DNA of 33,556 bases from Candidatus Stahliibacteriota bacterium (GTDB lineage: Bacteria > Hydrothermota > Tepidihabitantia > SM23-42): assembly GCA_030606265.1 (NCBI GenBank), contig JAUWGT010000006.1, forward strand, positions 1 through 33,556, read 5' to 3'. The position numbers and the translations under genes were made by a program. Shown here piece after piece: positions 1 to 22,857 of the stretch; position 1 is the first letter of the stretch; each line of letters begins with the position of its first letter. Below the pieces are notes generated by a model. The model was not told the origin of the DNA, searched no databases, and saw only the letters and a program-made list of their open reading frames with translations.

Positions 1-1344
1 ATATACATCAGCAGCATATTTTATTGAGGTCTGATGATTAAACAAGAAGTAAGATGTGGTATCAATCACAAAACCACCAGGGTCAAGCACCACACCGGAC
101 TGAGAAACTCTGGCACCATAAATACCAGAATAAGCAAGCCAGACAACAAGATAATCTGTACCATCACAGGTAATGACTGGATAGCACTGCGAACTGCCTG
201 CAGTCGAAATCGCAATACCTGATGTATCAATTACATTGCCAGATAACGATACACTCGCACCATAGATATCAAAATTATCCAAACCATTACGCCGGTCCTG
301 CCATGTGATAAAGTAGTCAGTTCCAGTAAATCCTATTGATGGATGGGTTTGAGAATAATCAGCCGTCGATATCTCTATACCGAAAGTATCAATGACAATT
401 CCCGATGTATTAACCCTGGAACCACAGATATCAAACATAGTTGTGTCAATTTGTTTATCTTGCCAGACCACAAAATAATTTGAACCATCAAACGAAACTG
501 ATGGGGAACACTGGCGGCAAGTGGTATCCACCATGATTTCAATGCCAAGAGTATCGAGCACAATACCAGACGTGCTAACCCGGGCGCCATAGATATCGCC
601 ATTTTTCCACTGCCACCATTGATTCCTACTATCTTCCCATACTACCAAGAAATTATTCCCATCAAAAGCAATACTCGGTGAACGTTGGAAAAACCCAGCG
701 GTTGAGATCGGAATGAAATTCGTGTCCAGAACTTGACCAGTCTGCGAAACACGTGTTCCATAAAGACCTGATATCCAACACCAAACAACAAGAAAATTAG
801 TGCCATCAAATGCCAGCGTTGGATTTCTCTGCCTCCCATACGTGGTGTTCAGAGGGATACCATCGGGATCAAGGACTTGACCGTTTGTTGAAACGCGTGC
901 GCCATAGATGTTCGCTTTATAGTCTCGATAATCTTGCCATATGACAAAATAGTTCGTGCCGTCAAATGCAACTGCTGGATTTTGCTGCGATTCACTGGCA
1001 AATGATATACAAATTGCCGAAGAGTCGAGCAATATACCTTCCTGTGTTACTCTCATGCCATAAATACGTGGTGTACCGTGACGATATTCAGTATACACAA
1101 TAAAATAATTCGTACCGTCAAAAGCCACGTCTGGAAAACGCTGTTCACCAATTCCTGGAATGGATGTAATACTTGTATCAATTAAAAAATCAGGTTGCTG
1201 CAGGTTCGAAAAATCGGTTCTGTTTGCTCTACTAATCAACTGCGTTGGCTCAAACGGTATCCTGAAATTAGTTAGGTTCTGGGCAAATATAAACCCGATA
1301 TATGAAACAAGTATACTCAAAAAGATATTTTTTCTCATATGCAT
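1..1344 (-). CDS. Secreted ~52-residue-repeat protein, C-terminus cut by window edge
   Basis: The 448-codon open frame runs off the left edge, so the C-terminus is missing. The chosen ATG at 1344 follows AAGGGGG (1355-1349); a second ATG six bases on is also possible. The N-terminus is a signal peptide (MRKN, then a hydrophobic stretch ending FIFAQ at about residue 22). From residue 68 there are at least seven tandem repeats of about 46-58 residues. Each carries AFDGTNYFVVWQD, then IYGARVS, G.VLD and GI.IST; FDG occurs near residues 75, 127 and 179. Such repeats are common in secreted bacterial proteins and would suit a beta-propeller (inference). No catalytic motif is visible. The gene stands alone behind a sigma54-like promoter (1368-1383), so it may be co-regulated with the pilin at 17436-17960. 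Function unknown; surface or exported protein likely. Confidence 0.85.
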   Translation of the reverse strand, partial: MHMRKNIFLSILVSYIGFIFAQNLTNFRIPFEPTQLISRANRTDFSNLQQPDFLIDTSITSIPGIGEQRFPDVAFDGTNYFIVYTEYRHGTPRIYGMRVTQEGILLDSSAICISFASESQQNPAVAFDGTNYFVIWQDYRDYKANIYGARVSTNGQVLDPDGIPLNTTYGRQRNPTLAFDGTNFLVVWCWISGLYGTRVSQTGQVLDTNFIPISTAGFFQRSPSIAFDGNNFLVVWEDSRNQWWQWKNGDIYGARVSTSGIVLDTLGIEIMVDTTCRQCSPSVSFDGSNYFVVWQDKQIDTTMFDICGSRVNTSGIVIDTFGIEISTADYSQTHPSIGFTGTDYFITWQDRRNGLDNFDIYGASVSLSGNVIDTSGIAISTAGSSQCYPVITCDGTDYLVVWLAYSGIYGARVSQSGVVLDPGGFVIDTTSYFLFNHQTSIKYAADVY

Positions 1345-1367
1345 AATACCCCCTTAATAAATATACA

Positions 1368-1383
1368 TACAATACCTATGCCA
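1368..1383 (-). promoter_or_regulatory. Sigma54-like promoter of the left-edge repeat protein
   Basis: Minus-strand TGGCATAGGTATTGTA has the -24 GG and -12 TTG at the spacing of the consensus TGGCAC-N5-TTGC. The final GC is GT, a weaker -12. It matches 13 of 16 positions of the element upstream of the pilin. The predicted start, about 12 nt on, gives a leader of about 14 nt that still holds the Shine-Dalgarno. Confidence 0.6.
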
Positions 1384-1422
1384 AAATAATGTTCTAAATA
1401 CTGAGCTTTTTATATTCGGATT

Positions 1423-1457
1423 TGTCTCATTCTTGTCGCCTGTCGCATTATGAGACA
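1423..1457 (-). promoter_or_regulatory. Candidate upstream activator sites (TGTCTCATT boxes)
   Basis: TGTCTCATT (1423-1431) and TGTCGCATT (1441-1449) are direct repeats 18 bp apart. An inverted ATGAGACA follows at 1450-1457. The boxes begin 40 bp upstream of the -24 element, where NtrC-family activators usually bind. The same boxes at the same period lie upstream of the pilin promoter. Confidence 0.55.
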
Positions 1458-1624
1458 GACTTAAGCATCGAATAATGGCATTTTCTTAATATGGACGATG
1501 TAGGACCATAATAAATAAAAACTTATCCCTTAACATAATCCATATAATCTTGTCTAAACTTTGTGATAACACGTACGGTCTTTTCAAAATTCATGGTTTC
1601 TTTTCCTGAAAATGATGAAAAAGC

Positions 1625-1674: not shown

Positions 1675-4074
1675 TTGCAAGAACGCTTTACTGAAAGAGT
1701 TAGGAAAATATTGCATCTCGCCCGTGATGAGGCGCTCAAGACCAAGCAGAGCTTTATCGGTACAGAACAGCTTCTTCTTGCGATGATTAAAGAAGGAGAA
1801 GGTGTTGGTGCAATGGTTTTAATAAACTTAGGCATTGAACTCAACGAATTACGCAAAGGTATTGAAAATTCAGTAATCATCGGTCCGGGTGGCAAGATAG
1901 ATGTTCAATTGAGCAATGAAGCAAGGTTATGCTTAAATTATGCCATGGAAGAAGCTAAAAACTTCGGGCATTCTTATGTCGGAACTGAGCATCTTCTACT
2001 CGGGATTATAAGAACCCAAGGCAGCCTGGGTGCTCAGATATTAGAATCTGTAGGTATGGATTATGAAACCCTGAAGAATGAAATAATTCAACTCCTGCGT
2101 CCTGAAAGCGTGGTATCTGGTAAAACCAAGAGCAAACACCGAAGTTCTGCCTTAGAGCTATTTTCACGTGATCTTACCCAGCTTGCCCGTGATGATAAAC
2201 TTGATCCGATTATTGGCCGGGAAAACGAGATTGAAAGAGTTATTCAGATATTGTCACGTCGCAAAAAGAACAACCCCGTATTAGTTGGTGAAGCCGGTGT
2301 TGGTAAAACCGCAATTGTCGAAGGTCTTGCCCAGGACATAGTCGCCGCTAATGTCCCAGATTGTCTCAAGAATAAACGTGTGGTTTCTTTAGATATGGCT
2401 TCCATTGTTGCCGGCACAAAATACCGCGGGCAGTTCGAGGAGAGGCTAAAAGCGGTCATAAACGAGGTTAAAAATAATAAGAAAATTATAGTATTCATTG
2501 ACGAACTTCACACTATTGTTGGTGCTGGTGCTGCCGAAGGCGCTATAGACGCCTCAAATATGCTAAAGCCAGCTCTGGCAAGAGGTGAACTCCAATGTGT
2601 GGGTGCCACAACCCTTGAAGATTACAGAAGATATATAGAAAAAAATGGAGCGCTTGAGCGTAGGTTTCAACTGATTGTCGTAAATCCGCCGACTCTTCAA
2701 GAGACAATAAGTATCTTGCATGGTTTGAAGTCAAGATATGAAGACCACCACCACATAACTTACACTGATGAATCCCTGGAAGCAGCTGCACGTCTATCAG
2801 ATCGTTATATTGCAGATCGTTTCTTGCCAGATAAGGCAATCGATGTAATAGATGAAGCAGGTGCTAAAGTAAAATTGTCCAAGATAGTTAAAGATGATCG
2901 AGTATCCATCCTTGAATTGGATTACGATTCAGTAAAGATGAAGAAGGAAAAAGCAATTGCCGATCAAAAGTTCGAAGAAGCAGCAAGGTTACGCGACGAA
3001 CAGAAAAAAATCAAGGAACAATTGACGGTCATTGAGAAAGATGATAGCATACCGCGTCCAACTGTACTTGACGAAGACATCGCTTTCGTTGTATCAAGAT
3101 GGACTGGTATCCCGGTAGCTAAGATAGAGGAAAAAGAATCCAAGCGCCTATTGAAGATGGAGGATGAAATAAGTAAAAAAGTCGTTGGTCAGACTGAGGC
3201 TATTAGTGCCATCGCAAAAGCGGTGAGACTAAGCCGGGCAGGCGTAAAAGACCCCAGACGACCGATCGGTTCTTTCATTTTTCTAGGACCTACGGGTGTC
3301 GGTAAAACCGAGTTAGCAAGACGGCTTGCCGAATTTACCTTCGGCGACACAAGTTCTCTGATAACACTTGATATGTCGGAATATATGGAGAAGTTTAATG
3401 TATCGAGGCTTATAGGCGCGCCACCTGGTTATGTCGGTTTTGAAGAAGGCGGTCAACTTACTGAGAAAGTTAAAAGAAAACCTTACTCAGTAGTACTGTT
3501 TGATGAAATAGAAAAAGCCCACCCAGATGTTTTTAATATTCTACTCCAGATTCTTGAAGATGGTCAGCTTACCAATTCCTACGGTCGTAAAATCAATTTC
3601 AAAAATACAATTATAATCATGACTTCCAATATTGGAACTGCTGAAATAGGAAAGGGTGATGGTTTGGGTTTTGCAAAGGACTCAGCCGATATTTCTTATG
3701 ACAAAATGAAAACAAGGCTTTTGGACGAAACCAAGAAGCTTTTCTCACCTGAATTCCTAAACAGAATTGATGAAATGATAGTATTCAGACAATTAAACAA
3801 AGAAAACATGATGGAAATAGTCGACATCCTGATTAGCGAAGTCGAGGAGCGCCTTAGCGAAAGAAAAATGCTACTTGAGCTTAACGACTCGAGTAAGGAA
3901 CTTCTGGTTGATCAAGGCTTTGATCCTGAATTTGGTGCACGTCCCATCAAGAGAACAATACGCCGTTTGATAGAAGACCCGCTTTCTGAAGCCATCCTGA
4001 AAGGTGAAATCACAGATGGCAAATGTATTCGTCTTATTAGGTCCGGCGACAAAATAGAATTCAAAGAGAAGTGA
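1675..4074 (+). CDS. clpC: ATP-dependent Clp protease ATPase subunit ClpC
   Basis: Hsp100 unfoldase that feeds substrates to ClpP in the cytoplasm. The 799 residues have the ClpC layout. Two Clp-N repeats come first (about 1-75 and 80-145). AAA+ domain 1 has Walker A GEAGVGKT at 205-212 and Walker B VFIDE near 273. A UVR-type linker lies near 420-450 ([10 protein letters not shown]). AAA+ domain 2 has GPTGVGKT at 538-545 and VLFDE near 607. A Clp D2-small C-terminal domain ends the protein. The start is TTG at 1675, placed by AGGAGGA four bases upstream. The linker and double Clp-N separate it from ClpA and ClpB. No mcsA, mcsB or ctsR is adjacent; instead the stop overlaps the bamA start, so this ATPase is expressed with outer-membrane assembly genes. 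A perfect palindrome in the promoter suggests repressor control. Confidence 0.97.
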
Positions 4075-16697: not shown

Positions 16698-16831
16698 ACA
16701 GAAAATGTAGATGAATTTCCGCAATGCGTGAGCAGGCAGGCAACTACAGCTGTAAAGGCGAACATATGATGTTCAGTTATTAAATAAAGCAGTTATTGAG
16801 TAACTGAGTAATTTAGTTATTAAAAGACGTT
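16698..16831. repeat. Degenerate AGTTATT/GAGTAACT word array
   Basis: From 16774 to 16826 the sequence is built of AGTTATTAAA, AGTTATTGAGTAACTGAGTAA and TTTAGTTATTAAAAG words. At 16830-16862 it passes into CATTCGTTTAGTTCGTTTCGATCG words, which read on the minus strand as CGAAACGAACTAAACGAATG. The second array forms the last codons of the decayed pilin frame. Confidence 0.5.
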
Positions 16832-17435: not shown

Positions 17436-17960
17436 TTATTGACCCGAAGTGAGTGTAAGCGCTAAAACCGCATCCACGCCATTCCCAGTAATTGAGTAAC
17501 TCACGACAGTATTTTGGCCAGCTGCCTGATTACCAGTTACGTCAAGCGATGCGTAATAGACAGCACCCGCATCCGCTAGGAGAAAAGCAGCAACAGCCGG
17601 AGAATATCCAGCAGGTGCAGCAGCGGCGGAGAGCACCGGGTTTTTGAAGCTGGTCGGCAACAAGATATTAACAACACCCGCCAACATCTGCCAGTTTGCG
17701 CCACCGGCTATGCTGCGCAAGTCAGCAGGATTCAGGGTAATCGCACCTACCTGGACTCCACAATCAAACGCATAGATACCCTCGGTCAATGTCGAGAAGT
17801 CTTCAGATGCAAGCTGGAGTGTGTGCATATTGCTCTTTACTGATGCTTCTTTTGCTCTTTTCTGCATACTGATGAAATTGGGGATAGCGATTGCCGCCAA
17901 AATACCGATAATCACCACCACAACCATCAGTTCGATCAGGGTGAATCCCTTTTTCTTCAT
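17436..17960 (-). CDS. Type IV pilin / pseudopilin (PilA/GspG-like)
   Basis: 174 residues with a class III signal: MKKKG, cleavage before FTLIELMVVVVIIGILAAIAIPNF, with E at +5 of the mature protein. The hydrophobic helix is about residues 6-28. The C-terminal globular domain is rich in Ala, Gly and Val and has one cysteine only, so there is no disulfide-bonded loop. The start is ATG 17960 behind AAGGAGGAA. It is a monocistronic unit: sigma54 promoter at 18184-18199, a leader of about 214 nt, and an intrinsic terminator. An NtrC-type activator lies just upstream, as PilR does in other bacteria. It could be the major pilin. No pilus assembly genes are in the window. Confidence 0.93.
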   Translation of the reverse strand: MKKKGFTLIELMVVVVIIGILAAIAIPNFISMQKRAKEASVKSNMHTLQLASEDFSTLTEGIYAFDCGVQVGAITLNPADLRSIAGGANWQMLAGVVNILLPTSFKNPVLSAAAAPAGYSPAVAAFLLADAGAVYYASLDVTGNQAAGQNTVVSYSITGNGVDAVLALTLTSGQ

Positions 17961-18021
17961 GATACTTCCTCCTTCATAACGAGATTTTGAATCATCTTCA
18001 TTATGTCCCGGTATTGCTAGT

Positions 18022-18036
18022 GGTTACAAAGTAACC
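18022..18036 (-). promoter_or_regulatory. Inverted repeat in the pilin mRNA leader
   Basis: GGTTAC-AAA-GTAACC, a perfect 6-bp inverted repeat with a 3-nt centre, about 60 nt upstream of the pilin start and inside the predicted leader. It could be an RNA hairpin or a protein site. Confidence 0.3.
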
Positions 18037-18183
18037 CGGTCTAAAACTCAGGCTTTGAGACATAATCCATAATGGTCAGGCAAGTAACAGCCTTTTCCAT
18101 TAACAATAAAGCCTAAACAAACATATCTATGAAAAGACATTTGTCAACAGATAAGTTGTGAAAGATCAGTCATTATATTCATA

Positions 18184-18199
18184 TGCAATACTCATGCCA
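18184..18199 (-). promoter_or_regulatory. Sigma54 promoter of the pilin gene
   Basis: Minus-strand TGGCATGAGTATTGCA matches the sigma54 consensus TGGCAC-N5-TTGCA at all -24 and -12 core positions with exact spacing. Transcription would start near 18174. Pilin genes are classic sigma54 targets. Confidence 0.82.
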
Positions 18200-18248
18200 G
18201 TATTAACATAAATAAGTTATGGTTTTTCATAGGCTTCTTGAAGTAGTA

Positions 18249-18275
18249 TGTCTCATTAATGGATACTGTCTCATT
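18249..18275 (-). promoter_or_regulatory. Candidate activator-binding boxes upstream of the pilin promoter
   Basis: Two identical TGTCTCATT boxes (18249-18257 and 18267-18275), 18 bp apart, begin 50 bp upstream of the -24 element. The left-edge gene has the same boxes at the same period 40 bp upstream of its promoter. They are likely sites of an NtrC-family activator. Confidence 0.62.
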
Positions 18276-18327
18276 TTGATACACTTAAGCCTCGCTTATT
18301 TACGGCTTCTCAATAGGCTTACCGAGA

Positions 18328-18429: not shown

Positions 18430-18535
18430 CCTGTCAACTTCCAAGCTTCGTATTTTCTCAACTTCATTCTTTAGCGTGTCTTCGTATCTTCTTAACTTCT
18501 CTTTTCCCTATCTTCCTTCGTTTCTGTGATCCAAT
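18430..18535 (-). repeat. Purine-word repeat overlapping the 3' end of the NtrC-type gene
   Basis: On the minus strand the words GAAGTTAAGAAGATACGAAG, TAAAGAATGAAGTT, GAGAAAATACGAAG and CTTGGAAGTTG follow each other. TAAAGAATGAAGTT (18473-18460) is identical to 15321-15334. The segment 18499-18479 matches 15404-15424 at 18 of 21 positions. Confidence 0.6.
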
Positions 18536-19783
18536 TCTTCTATACAAAGTTGCCCGACCCACACCGAGTATCTTAGCGGCCTTGCTAACATTACCGCTAC
18601 ATTCTTCCAAAATCCTTTGGATCTCAGCTTCCTGTAATTCATCAAGACTCTTTCTGTATCCGCTTGTTGACACCCCAAGATGCTCGGCTTTGATATAGAA
18701 CGAATCACTCAAGATCGCCGCTCTCTCAATGACGTGACGCAATTCTCTTATATTACCCGGCCAATCGCGTCTTTTTAAGGCTTCAAGGACAGTCTTTGAA
18801 AACTTCCTCTCCCCCAAACCCTCCCTACTACAGACCAATTTTAGGAAATGTTCAGCGAGTAGTGGAATATCTTCTCGTCGTTGTCTTAAAGGCGGTAAAA
18901 CAATTGGAATGACATTAAGTCGATAATAAAGGTCTTCCCGAAACCTTCCTTTTCTAACCTCATCCATAAGATTTTTGTTAGTTGCCGAAACTAAACGCAC
19001 ATTAACGCGTATGGGTTTTGTCGAACCGAGTGGTACTATCTCCTTTTCTTCTAATAAACGCAGGAGCTTCATCTGAATTGTTGTTGGTGCATCGCCTATT
19101 TCATCGAGGAAACAAGTTCCGTTATCAGCAACGCAAAACAGTCCTTTCTTATCCGCTCCCGCACCAGTAAAGGCACCTTTTTTATAACCAAATAGTTCAC
19201 TCTCCAGCAGAGTCTCTGGTAATGCAGCACAAGAGATCGTAACGAATCTATTCCCTGAACGCTTTGAAATATTGTGTATTTCCCGGGCGATCAATTCCTT
19301 ACCAGTACCTGATTCACCAAGGATGAGAACTGTAGTTTCAGTATTCGCAATTCTCTTGACCATATCAAGTACGTCTCTGATCTGTTTGCTTTTTCCAATC
19401 GTCTGACAAGATGCTTCTACTGGTTTAACTATATTGGCTCTTATGCGTAAGAGTAGTTCATCAATACCAAATGGTTTGAGGATATAGTCACTTGCTTTAT
19501 CACGTAGTGCATTGACTGCCGATTCCATAGAACCGTAGGCAGTTATGAAAATAAGCGGAATGTCCGGGTAGATCTTTCTGACCTTTTTTAAAAATGCAAA
19601 GCCATCGATATCTGGCATTCTGATATCGCTGATAACGAGGTTATATTTAGTTTCTCTCAGCGCCTGGAGCGCAGTCTTTGGTTCAGTAGTAGCAAATACG
19701 TCATAACCTTTTTGCTCTAATGCATAGGAAAGCCACTTAATAAGGCTTTCCTCATCATCGAGTATTAAAATCCTATGTTTCAT
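18464..19783 (-). CDS. NtrC-family sigma54-dependent response regulator (PilR-like)
   Basis: 439 residues. The receiver domain (1-120) has acidic D9/D10, phospho-acceptor D53 (ISDIRMP), T81 and K103. The AAA+ domain has GESGTGKE (156-163), the sigma54-contact loop GAFTGA (203-208) and FLDEIG near 225-230. A Fis-type HTH follows near 395-415 (GNVSKAAKILGVGRATLYRR). All parts needed to activate sigma54 polymerase are present. No histidine kinase is adjacent. The pilin with a sigma54 promoter is the next gene on the strand, so pilin activation is the likely task. After the HTH a basic tail (GSQKRRKIGKREVKKIRRHA) is encoded by a degenerate intergenic repeat and is probably an acquired extension. 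Confidence 0.95.
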   Translation of the reverse strand: MKHRILILDDEESLIKWLSYALEQKGYDVFATTEPKTALQALRETKYNLVISDIRMPDIDGFAFLKKVRKIYPDIPLIFITAYGSMESAVNALRDKASDYILKPFGIDELLLRIRANIVKPVEASCQTIGKSKQIRDVLDMVKRIANTETTVLILGESGTGKELIAREIHNISKRSGNRFVTISCAALPETLLESELFGYKKGAFTGAGADKKGLFCVADNGTCFLDEIGDAPTTIQMKLLRLLEEKEIVPLGSTKPIRVNVRLVSATNKNLMDEVRKGRFREDLYYRLNVIPIVLPPLRQRREDIPLLAEHFLKLVCSREGLGERKFSKTVLEALKRRDWPGNIRELRHVIERAAILSDSFYIKAEHLGVSTSGYRKSLDELQEAEIQRILEECSGNVSKAAKILGVGRATLYRRIGSQKRRKIGKREVKKIRRHAKE

Positions 19784-19849: not shown

Positions 19850-20815
19850 CTATTTCCTTCTTCGAGCGAAGAGCTCAGTCAAAATAAGTTTGATCTCAGG
19901 GCTAATCCTCAGCTCCCTCAATACCCCTTTATTCTTGAGCGAGAGCCCAAGGTCAAATGTTAATGTTCCAATCCGTTTCATCGGTATCGCAAGCGATACG
20001 TCAATACCGTGTTCTGCTATATTCTGCAGATACCAGGGATTGTAAAAATAACTGACTGCAAACCGTTCTCTGGAAAAACCCAGTTTGAACCTGTACGGCG
20101 ACCGAAATTCATTTATCTCGTTATCATCTTGCCAGAATGAATGTTCCAAAAACAATGTCAGTCTTCCACCCATGAGCTTTTTCTGGGGAGTGATACCGAA
20201 TGATACTCGGGCAGGCAAATCAATCATTGTATCAGAATCTTGTCTTTCCATTACAATACTACCAAAAGCTTCGCCGAACAAAGAAACATCAAACAGCTCT
20301 CTGGCTCTTAGTTTAAGCCCTGCAGAAAAGATCTTTCCCTCATATTTGTACAAAAAGGAATCAACCAGATAATAATTAGAAACGTAATAATGCCATATTT
20401 CAGATGCATTACCGAACAGATACGATCCGCGTAAGGCAGCTTCACCCAGGCCAAAATCATTATTGAGGTTGAGATAAATTTCCTCAATGCCACCTTTCCC
20501 TTTCAGATGAATGTCCAGGTCATCTTCGCTGAAGAAGATATCGAATGATTGATTAAACCTTGTTAGATTACCTGCACCAAAAATAAAGCCCTTGGTAATG
20601 GGTATCGCTAATTTCAGGGTGAAAGGGTTGGTCCAGACTAGTCCCCGGAAATCTGAATCCTCACTGAGTATATTGAACTCAGGTCGCAACGCCAATTCGA
20701 TCCGAGCTTTTCCTTTTACTCCAAGGAAGGGATATCTGAATATACTATTGTCTTCTCCGATACCACCAAGCGCAAATATAGATGCATTAATAAGAAAAAT
20801 CAGCAATGCGCCCAC
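19850..20815 (-). CDS. Predicted outer-membrane beta-barrel protein
   Basis: 321 residues. A signal-like N-terminus (GALLIFLINASIFALGG) is followed by many alternating amphipathic strands ending in aromatic residues: RIELALRPEF, FTLKLAIPI, AALRGSYLF, RLTLFLEHSFW, RFKLGFSRERFAVSYFYNP, GTLTFDLGLSL. This is the pattern of a small barrel or PorV/UPF0164-like protein. I do not recognise a named family. Its GTG start overlaps the upstream stop (TAGTG) with AAGGTAGG before it, so it is translated with the DNRLRE-type protein. That partner, the FecR-like gene before it and the pilin regulator after it suggest a surface-structure locus. Confidence 0.65.
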   Translation of the reverse strand: MGALLIFLINASIFALGGIGEDNSIFRYPFLGVKGKARIELALRPEFNILSEDSDFRGLVWTNPFTLKLAIPITKGFIFGAGNLTRFNQSFDIFFSEDDLDIHLKGKGGIEEIYLNLNNDFGLGEAALRGSYLFGNASEIWHYYVSNYYLVDSFLYKYEGKIFSAGLKLRARELFDVSLFGEAFGSIVMERQDSDTMIDLPARVSFGITPQKKLMGGRLTLFLEHSFWQDDNEINEFRSPYRFKLGFSRERFAVSYFYNPWYLQNIAEHGIDVSLAIPMKRIGTLTFDLGLSLKNKGVLRELRISPEIKLILTELFARRRK

Positions 20816-21888
20816 TAATACCTACCTTGCGGTGGTGGGATATATCCCACTTTCAGAGTGTGTGAACCACTGATCATTTTATAGTTAGCAATCTCATAAT
20901 TTTCAGGCGATAATACAATAAAGAAACCAAAATTAGAATCCGGCTCTTCAATAATATGTTGAATATGTCGAACAATGTCGATATTGAACACCGTGTCGTC
21001 AGCGGCAAATCTTACAAGCGCAATAAGCGGCCCTGTCGCAGTATTAAAATCATCAAGTGGAGCTAACAGTTGCTTGACACCGATTTCAATAGAGTCGCGC
21101 ATAATAAAATGCTGTTCAGGTCTGAACGTCAATTCAGCATAGATCGCCTTCTTATCATCTAAGATGGAATCGTATTCAAACTTGACATAGTTGCGATACG
21201 GTATACCAGAACCTATCCAGCTTTCGGTATAAAATGGTTCTGGGCCAGTGACGATGTAACAATCATTGCTCAAAGGCATAGAGGAAGTAACACCGTTCTT
21301 GACAAGCAGAAATTTAGGCACATAACCGCCTTCTTTTGAATAGAAGTGGCTGAAACCAGAGTCAACCGGGATTATTATCATACCGTCGGCATTGATGATC
21401 TCATCGAGCTCAATGTAATTGAATGTAACAAGCAGAGAATCGCCCTTTAATTCTGCAAAACGCAAAGAATCGTCGTTAAAATCTCCGCCTTCGCTTTCCC
21501 AAGATTCACCACTCATCCTTTGAAACCAATTTGCCTGGTCCTCGTCAAATTCATGGGTCAGTAAATGTATACTCACTTTTATAGTATCATTGTTAAAATT
21601 CAGATTAGTCTGGAGGATTAACTTTATTTCATCGAGGCCTTGATATGAGCTATCTCCAAAATCGAATTCCAAAAGCATCCTTGACTCATAGTCGTTGTTC
21701 TTACCAACAACCAGGTTGGTTGATTTACCAAGGTTGGCGAATTTATCGAATTCAGTGAGGGTATTATTAAGGGTTAATTCAAGTTCCTGTGCATCAAAAT
21801 TACCTCTAATATTCAATTCTTCCTCACCGATCGGCAGCTCATTGCAGCAGATAAAAAGGAGAACTGTTAATAATGCAAATCGTATCAT
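20815..21888 (-). CDS. Exported DNRLRE-like protein, possible lipoprotein
   Basis: 357 residues. The signal MIRFALLTVLLFICCNELPIG has two cysteines; C15 could be lipidated, although the lipobox is poor. The body looks like a DNRLRE/CBM96-type jelly roll: ANLGKSTNLVVG, then SRMLLEFDF, GLDEIKLILQT, and VSIHLLTHEFDEDQANW, the usual 'W-D-E-x-x-x-TW' position. A second, similar half may follow (YRNYVKFEYD, KKAIYAELTFRPEQ). These modules occur in large secreted proteins; a stand-alone lipoprotein form is less usual. Its promoter overlaps the stop of the FecR-like gene and ends six bases before the ATG, so its mRNA may be leaderless. The next gene overlaps it by 1 nt. Confidence 0.7.
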   Translation of the reverse strand: MIRFALLTVLLFICCNELPIGEEELNIRGNFDAQELELTLNNTLTEFDKFANLGKSTNLVVGKNNDYESRMLLEFDFGDSSYQGLDEIKLILQTNLNFNNDTIKVSIHLLTHEFDEDQANWFQRMSGESWESEGGDFNDDSLRFAELKGDSLLVTFNYIELDEIINADGMIIIPVDSGFSHFYSKEGGYVPKFLLVKNGVTSSMPLSNDCYIVTGPEPFYTESWIGSGIPYRNYVKFEYDSILDDKKAIYAELTFRPEQHFIMRDSIEIGVKQLLAPLDDFNTATGPLIALVRFAADDTVFNIDIVRHIQHIIEEPDSNFGFFIVLSPENYEIANYKMISGSHTLKVGYIPPPQGRY

Positions 21889-21894
21889 AATCAG

Positions 21895-21922
21895 ATAATA
21901 TTCAAATATTCAAACAAGTCAA
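21895..21922 (-). promoter_or_regulatory. Internal promoter for the DNRLRE-like gene, likely leaderless
   Basis: TTGACT (21922-21917), 16-nt spacer, TATTAT (21900-21895), then six bases to ATG 21888. The -35 box contains the TGA stop of the upstream gene. There is no Shine-Dalgarno before the ATG. Confidence 0.55.
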
Positions 21923-22857
21923 GGATGCGTGATCGTCGTCTTGGATAAGTTCAAGAATGCATCACCGAGTTCGGGGATGCCAAGCTCATAATATATCTCA
22001 GCCATAGCTTTATAGAGAACTGGTTCATTCGGTTTAACGCCAATAAGTTTGTTATAATTATCCATTGCCATTAGCATCAATCCATTTCTTTTAAACAAAA
22101 CAGCTTTCAAAAGGTGAAGCGTGAAGTAATCAGGTTTCCGTTGTCCGATATTGTCACTAATCTTGCGCAAATCGTGGATTGCCGTGCTGTCAAGGATATC
22201 TATTGAACATGTAGCTGTATACAAAGTGTCGCTATTGCGGATTGCAAGAACCTTTATCGTGTACATACCAATCAAATCTTCCACGTTCTCGGGAAACAGG
22301 AAAACAGTATCGGTGGTTGCTATGCTGGAGATGATTTGTTTGCCTTGCTGCAATCTCATATTATACCAATTTGCACCTGGATATTTACTCCATGTGATAT
22401 CAGGTCTTGGATCGATCAAAACAGTATTGCCCGGGCGTTGAATGACCATTTGCAGGGTATCCTTTTCCTGTTTAGCTAAGCTTCTAGATATCATTTCTCC
22501 ATTCCATTCTTTCAATTGGTGCAACTCCCTAAAAAGTCCAAGTACCTTGTTTGATGTAGCTGGTACGTCAGATGTGATACCTGATGTATCGAGTGCGGGT
22601 ATTGCGAAAGACTCGATCGAATTGATAACGTCTAGCCTGCCATCCCGGTAAAAGATAGTAGTAGATCCAGAATCACCGAGGATCAATGTGTCATCTTCAA
22701 AAAGAAAATCAAGTACCTGGACCTTGACGAGGGTTGTTTCACCAGGGTGGACGAGCATTACGCCACTATTCACTGCAGTAATGATACCTGTTGGATAAAC
22801 TGGTTGTTCTGCAAAAACCGTCAATAAAGATCCTAACAATACCAAATAGAGCCTCAT
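21919..22857 (-). CDS. Exported FecR-like protein with TPR-like C-terminus
   Basis: 312 residues with signal peptide MRLYLVLLGSLLTVFA. Residues about 25-90 resemble a FecR domain (LVHPGETTLVKVQVLD, then DTLILGDSGSTTIFYRDGRLDVI). A beta-rich stretch with a WSKYPGANWYNMRL core follows (about 150-225), perhaps Fn3-like. TPR-like helices follow at the end (HLLKAVLFKRNGLMLMAMDNYNKLIGVKPNEPVLYKAMAEIYYELG). It is not a FecI/FecR anti-sigma arrangement, since no membrane segment or sigma gene accompanies it. It heads the minus-strand cluster with a near-perfect sigma70 promoter and AAAGGAGA before the ATG. Specific role unknown. Confidence 0.7.
   Translation of the reverse strand: MRLYLVLLGSLLTVFAEQPVYPTGIITAVNSGVMLVHPGETTLVKVQVLDFLFEDDTLILGDSGSTTIFYRDGRLDVINSIESFAIPALDTSGITSDVPATSNKVLGLFRELHQLKEWNGEMISRSLAKQEKDTLQMVIQRPGNTVLIDPRPDITWSKYPGANWYNMRLQQGKQIISSIATTDTVFLFPENVEDLIGMYTIKVLAIRNSDTLYTATCSIDILDSTAIHDLRKISDNIGQRKPDYFTLHLLKAVLFKRNGLMLMAMDNYNKLIGVKPNEPVLYKAMAEIYYELGIPELGDAFLNLSKTTITHP

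Follow-up and report, generated by a model that had tools for sequence, protein, structure and literature searches.

A probable PilR-like sigma-54 regulon linking type IV pili with a T9SS-exported, predicted beta-propeller protein in a WOR-3 bacterium

The window analysed here (33,556 nucleotides) comprises all of contig C172 from a metagenome assembly of 2.28 Mb, designated G000; its relatives are designated G001, G002, G003 and so on. Those contigs of the relatives that match named-collection records belong to candidate division WOR-3, Stahlbacteria or TA06. At its left edge the window holds the 5' part of a gene for a secreted repeat protein, which is divergent from clpC, our synteny anchor. 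Farther right, the gene of an NtrC-class response regulator adjoins that of a major type IV pilin with a sigma-54 promoter, an arrangement conserved in more than 20 relatives (Table 1).

Table 1. Features of the two promoter regions in the window and targets of the same operator in related genomes.
Feature	Position	Strand	Remarks
Secreted repeat protein gene (predicted beta-propeller), 5' part	1..1344	-	448 aa
Probable ribosome-binding site	1349..1355	-	AAGGGGG before ATG 1344; sequence
Left -24/-12 sigma-54 element	1368..1383	-	TGGCATAGGTATTGTA; -12 is TTGT, not TTGC
Left proximal activator half-site	1423..1429	-	TGAGACA, 39 bp upstream of TGGC
Left distal activator dyad	1441..1457	-	TGTCTCA-TAA-TGCGACA, 17 bp; TGTCTCATAATGCGACA read on the minus strand
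CTTAAG flanking the left dyad	1460..1465	.	just outside the dyad
clpC	1675..4074	+	divergent neighbour of the left-edge gene
Type IV pilin gene	17436..17960	-	MKKKGFTLIELM...
Pilin -24/-12 element	18184..18199	-	TGGCATGAGTATTGCA
Pilin proximal half-site	18249..18255	-	TGAGACA, 49 bp from TGGC
Pilin dyad	18267..18283	-	TGTATCA-AAA-TGAGACA, TGTATCAAAATGAGACA
CTTAAG adjoining the pilin dyad	18284..18289	.	
NtrC-class response regulator, probable activator	18464..19783	-	receiver, GAFTGA AAA+ and Fis-type HTH, helix GVGRATLYRR
G003 divergent pilin paralogue	contig C98, L085:9036-9584		MKKRGIIMLELM...; directly behind the propeller gene
G005 target			256 aa
G006 targets			718, 719, 865 aa; also a frame-shifted gene and an ORF of 87 aa
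G025 targets			947, 923, 797, 1430 aa

The left-edge gene continues on contig C138, which carries its 3' part; 47 residues are identical at the joint, and the joined frame is open over 747 aa. The protein has repeats of ~52 residues. AlphaFold2 predicts four-stranded blades (mean pLDDT 75), and the top Foldseek matches are beta-propellers, for example arabinanases and TolB. The C-terminus is a T9SS type A tail (PF18962, E 1.1e-7; TIGR04183, 33.2 bits against a cut-off of 23). The SprA_N model of the translocon protein SprA exceeded its cut-off in G000, as it did in 23 of the 27 genomes searched. Between G000 and G003, dN/dS is ~0.24 for the repeat gene and 0.06 for clpC, with dS near saturation; judged from these sequences, the repeat gene is under purifying selection.

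On the minus strand, the left promoter reads CTTAAG-TC-TGTCTCA-TAA-TGCGACA-N11-TGAGACA-N39-TGGCATAGGTATTGTA and the pilin promoter CTTAAG-TGTATCA-AAA-TGAGACA-N11-TGAGACA-N49-TGGCATGAGTATTGCA. The initial annotation had aligned the two -24/-12 elements (1383-1368 and 18199-18184) with 13 of 16 positions identical, and we verified this count. The 18-bp period that it gave for the boxes also holds at both loci: on the plus strand the left boxes are TGTCTCATT (1423-1431) and TGTCGCATT (1441-1449), and the pilin boxes lie at 18249-18257 and 18267-18275. The direct repeats it described are thus present, but the deeper unit had been missed, namely a 17-bp dyad with a third half-site (TGAGACA at the left gene, 11 bp from the dyad) and CTTAAG outside.

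The two promoters differ in the -12 element and in spacing. As had been pointed out, the left gene carries a weak -12: GG is present at -24, and GT stands in place of the GC expected ten bases on, whereas the pilin and the G003 orthologue of the left gene have both GG and GC. TTGT at -12 also occurs in another sigma-54-like promoter of the same genome, on contig C160, which has kept its own palindrome. The distance from the last box to the -24 element is 39 bp at the left gene, 10 bp below the pilin and 12 bp below the orthologue. The 10-bp difference was given correctly in the initial annotation and roughly keeps the helical phase. Its argument from a common helix face holds for this gene specifically, since the orthologue uses 51 bp and a spacing of 39 bp occurs in no further copy. 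Because its -12 is TTGT and its spacing is unlike that of every other copy, the left promoter may be weaker, or may be decaying.

Twenty-one pilin promoters from families f1 and f2 keep the array, always 48-52 bp from the -24 element and with CTTAA invariant (21/21 aligned), and it occurs in the pilin promoters of nearly all genomes of the two families. We trained a promoter profile on these 21 pilin promoters only, so that the left gene stood outside the training set. Within the window, this profile scored the pilin promoter at 74.6 bits, the left gene at 31.8 (rank 2) and the next site at 7.9. A weight matrix of the dyad gave 27.0 bits for the pilin, 22.6 for the left gene and 9.7 for the next best window site. 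When the tandem pattern was scanned through the genome with up to three mismatches, the left-gene and pilin sites were the only ones with none. Across 31 genomes, the three-box pattern with up to three mismatches gave 19 matches against one for the reversed control. The search of the genome and its relatives for the composite motif, which had been suggested as a check, thus recovered the left site and found the boxes conserved in relatives. The sole match outside WOR-3 in the genome-collection scan, on a GC-rich Polyangiaceae contig (L102), had neither the spacing nor the dyad and was judged a chance hit.

One orthologue of the left gene was found beside clpC. It lies in G003 at the same junction of clpC and a TPR gene, with 62-63% identity. 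Comparison of its upstream region revealed a three-box array with no mismatch and, at 51 bp, a perfect sigma-54 site, TGGCATATTTCTTGCA. Its stop codon is followed after 16 bp, in the same direction, by a gene for a pilin paralogue of 182 aa (38% identity to the window pilin, E 8e-37), and the two genes form a putative operon. The equivalent place in the genome of the window has no pilin paralogue. In the two nearest relatives, G001 and G002, the TPR gene abuts clpC; the left gene is absent there and is therefore an accessory member.

Profile matches with the same boxes also precede secreted-protein genes in G005, G006 and G025 (the TA06 loci L095/L100 are part of G006 contig C135, with which they agree in length and sequence, and were counted once). 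If the genes of G000 and G003 are included, the non-pilin targets number 12 in five genomes, and nine of them carry a T9SS or FlgD-like tail by HMM. Genome-wide, G000 has 104 T9SS tails, which on an assumed total of ~2,100 genes is ~5%, so that T9SS cargo is strongly overrepresented among the targets.

The regulator matches PF00072, PF00158 (Sigma54_activat) and PF02954, which places it in the NtrC class, and the GAFTGA and acidic/phospho-Asp motifs are visible in its translation. No PilR model of NCBIfam matched it, and the ntrC, AtoC and ZraR models stayed below cut-off; we therefore term it PilR-like. Orthologues with 65-93% identity occur in 22 genomes of the two families, and a third family has a relative with 58% identity. 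In the window, G005, G011 and G023 alike, no kinase gene adjoins the regulator and the neighbouring ORFs encode the same non-kinase proteins, so that by gene order the regulator is an orphan. Upstream of it (window 19850-22857) lie genes for outer-membrane-like and lipoprotein-like proteins, whose order is kept in G005, G011 and G023. The rpoN gene is present in G000 but split over two contig ends, C93 (model positions 274-434) and C50 (4-271).

In the orthologues, a recognition helix of the form G(V/I)(G/S/A)R(A/S)TLYR goes with a pilin operator of the form TGTNNCA..TGAGACA. G011, G015 and G016 (L019, L015 and L012) have GIDRKTLYN as the helix and, at the equivalent place, TGTGGAA..TTCCACA or TGTAGA..GTCCACA as the operator. 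Because the shift of the recognition helix from GVGRATLYR to GIDRKTLYN comes with a different pilin operator, the regulator beside the pilin is the likely activator. The covariation spans three genomes of two genera, and a tree of the remaining protein sequence fits one switch or two. Here an NtrC-class activator appears to have switched its specificity in nature, possibly in a single event. When G011, G012, G015 and G016 were searched for further targets of the switched operator, perfect matches came up at pilin copies only (none in G012), and other matches were no commoner than in the control.

We then propose that one PilR-like sigma-54 regulon joins type IV pili to the T9SS-exported beta-propeller surface protein and that the regulator of the window activates both, a reading to which we assign a probability of about 0.78. 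Once activated, the regulator would bind the dyad (TGTCTCA-N3-TGAGACA) together with the third half-site, and would contact RNA polymerase-sigma-54 at the -24/-12 element through bending or looping of the DNA, with its GAFTGA ATPase opening the promoter. The left promoter would be active despite its TTGT, and the pilin and the propeller protein would act in one surface-attachment programme. Since both genes have the same rare combination of activator boxes and sigma-54 promoter and the link is kept in relatives, one regulator very probably switches on both pili and secreted surface proteins. A single regulon of pili and a secreted repeat protein had been suggested in the initial annotation, and the sequences support it: the array recurs in ~20 pilin promoters, the G003 orthologue has a perfect array and an intact sigma-54 site ahead of it and a pilin paralogue behind it, three other genomes add T9SS-tailed secreted targets, and activator helix and pilin operator covary. 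We also consider, as a conceivable though doubtful extension, that the propeller protein works together with the pilus, for instance as a pilus-associated or surface adhesin, that both belong to one attachment module under the PilR-like regulator, and that the G003 pair is the single-operon form of this module.

Chance resemblance within AT-rich intergenic DNA would fit the finding that single boxes, with one mismatch allowed, are no more frequent here than in shuffled sequence, but the composite site has E-values of 5.5e-9 in the window and 3.6e-7 genome-wide (rough values), shuffling the 330-bp gap 5000 times never gave the score of the left dyad, and the orthologue conserves the array; we regard this explanation as negligible. 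It is less far-fetched, though still unlikely, that an ancestral functional array is now decaying in G000, where the loss of 12 bp from the spacer and the TTGT would weaken or kill the sigma-54 promoter and leave the gene silent or transcribed from elsewhere. The -12 and the spacer, both unique among the copies when set beside the TTGC and 51 bp of the orthologue, are what such decay would look like, and the gene has been lost in G001 and G002. However, the two-sided dyad, the third box and CTTAAG are all intact, the long frame is open and under apparent purifying selection, the 10-bp offset retains the approximate phase, and the C160 promoter likewise has TTGT.

A paralogous NtrC-class activator of equal box specificity could instead drive the repeat gene, so that the motif is shared and the regulator is not. 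A search of the genome with the regulator gave 20 matches at E <= 0.001, and the G003 assembly contains the repeat gene without a close regulator orthologue. That absence is explained by the assembly, as the G003 contig ends at the equivalent of window position 16814, short of the pilin and the regulator. Moreover, the nearest paralogue in G000 is 46% identical, and the remaining sigma-54 promoters of the genome have different palindromes, all of which makes a second activator quite improbable.

The proposed regulon resembles the PilR-sigma-54 control of pilA in Pseudomonas aeruginosa and Geobacter sulfurreducens, in which an NtrC-class regulator adjoins the major pilin and the pilin promoter is of the sigma-54 type; in Geobacter, pilA lies immediately downstream of pilR (PMC2725144). 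The hallmark of PilR sites is a TGT-N11-A.A (AGA) dyad with GTCT elements (PMC6058289), and the array in the window is likewise a TGT-N11-ACA dyad containing GTCTC/GAGAC. In contrast to PilR-pilA, no PilS kinase lies beside the regulator, the array has three half-sites with CTTAAG, and a T9SS cargo protein takes the place of second target. Wider PilR regulons, in G. sulfurreducens and Dichelobacter nodosus, take in surface-exposed or cell-wall proteins besides pilin, according to work cited in PMC6058289, and thus reach beyond pilin to surface proteins as here. Unlike those, the present targets are mostly T9SS-tailed and belong to an uncultured phylum, and one relative has a target and a pilin paralogue in a putative operon. 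Sigma-54 control of both pili and secreted surface proteins also agrees with the general theme of a broad comparative survey, sigma-54 as a controller of the bacterial exterior (Francke et al. 2011, PMC3162934), to which the present case adds a specific operator and a candidate regulator in WOR-3. The main text of a 2025 sigma-54 survey (PMC12316311) mentions neither WOR-3 nor T9SS. Our literature search found no report of a PilR-like or sigma-54 link to T9SS cargo in WOR-3. PilR-like sigma-54 regulons are of a known kind, and what stands out here is the T9SS cargo and the covariation of helix and operator.

WOR-3 bacteria are mostly uncultured, and we know of no assigned role or control for their many T9SS-secreted repeat proteins. 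An operator that ties some of these proteins to a pilus regulator suggests a testable function, surface attachment, and pili have been seen on one isolate of WOR-3 (PMC12285271). The conserved operator also offers a route to reading regulons from sequence in this phylum, and the joint change of recognition helix and operator provides a natural case of activator-operator co-change.

The mRNA leader of the pilin (window 17961-18183) would be unusually long, ~210 nt, and holds the inverted pair ATTATGTC/GACATAAT; an Rfam search for a riboswitch in this leader gave no match. Exact -24/-12 matches number 14 in the genome, against none for the reversed control. Other sigma-54 promoters of the genome (contigs C28, C51, C63, C66, C160 and C171; loci L133, L140 and L192-L203) have palindromes of their own at a similar distance: AGTGTRTCATTTTGAYACACT twice on C28, near an HD-GYP-like gene, and on C160; a TTGCACAA-like palindrome on C63 and C171; and TTATAACATATTATAC..TATAAC on C51 and C66. 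The profile matches on C160 and C28 were rejected as members of the pilin regulon and assigned to another sigma-54 regulon, because their palindrome differs (AGTGTRTCA..TGAYACACT) and an HD-GYP-like gene is near. A TGAAATTnCA-NN-ACTTTTT-like element recurs between the boxes and the -24 element, just upstream of the latter (window 18200-18235; L133, L139, L140 and L202). It is found with differing activator palindromes and is possibly a lineage-wide extension or bend of sigma-54 promoters.
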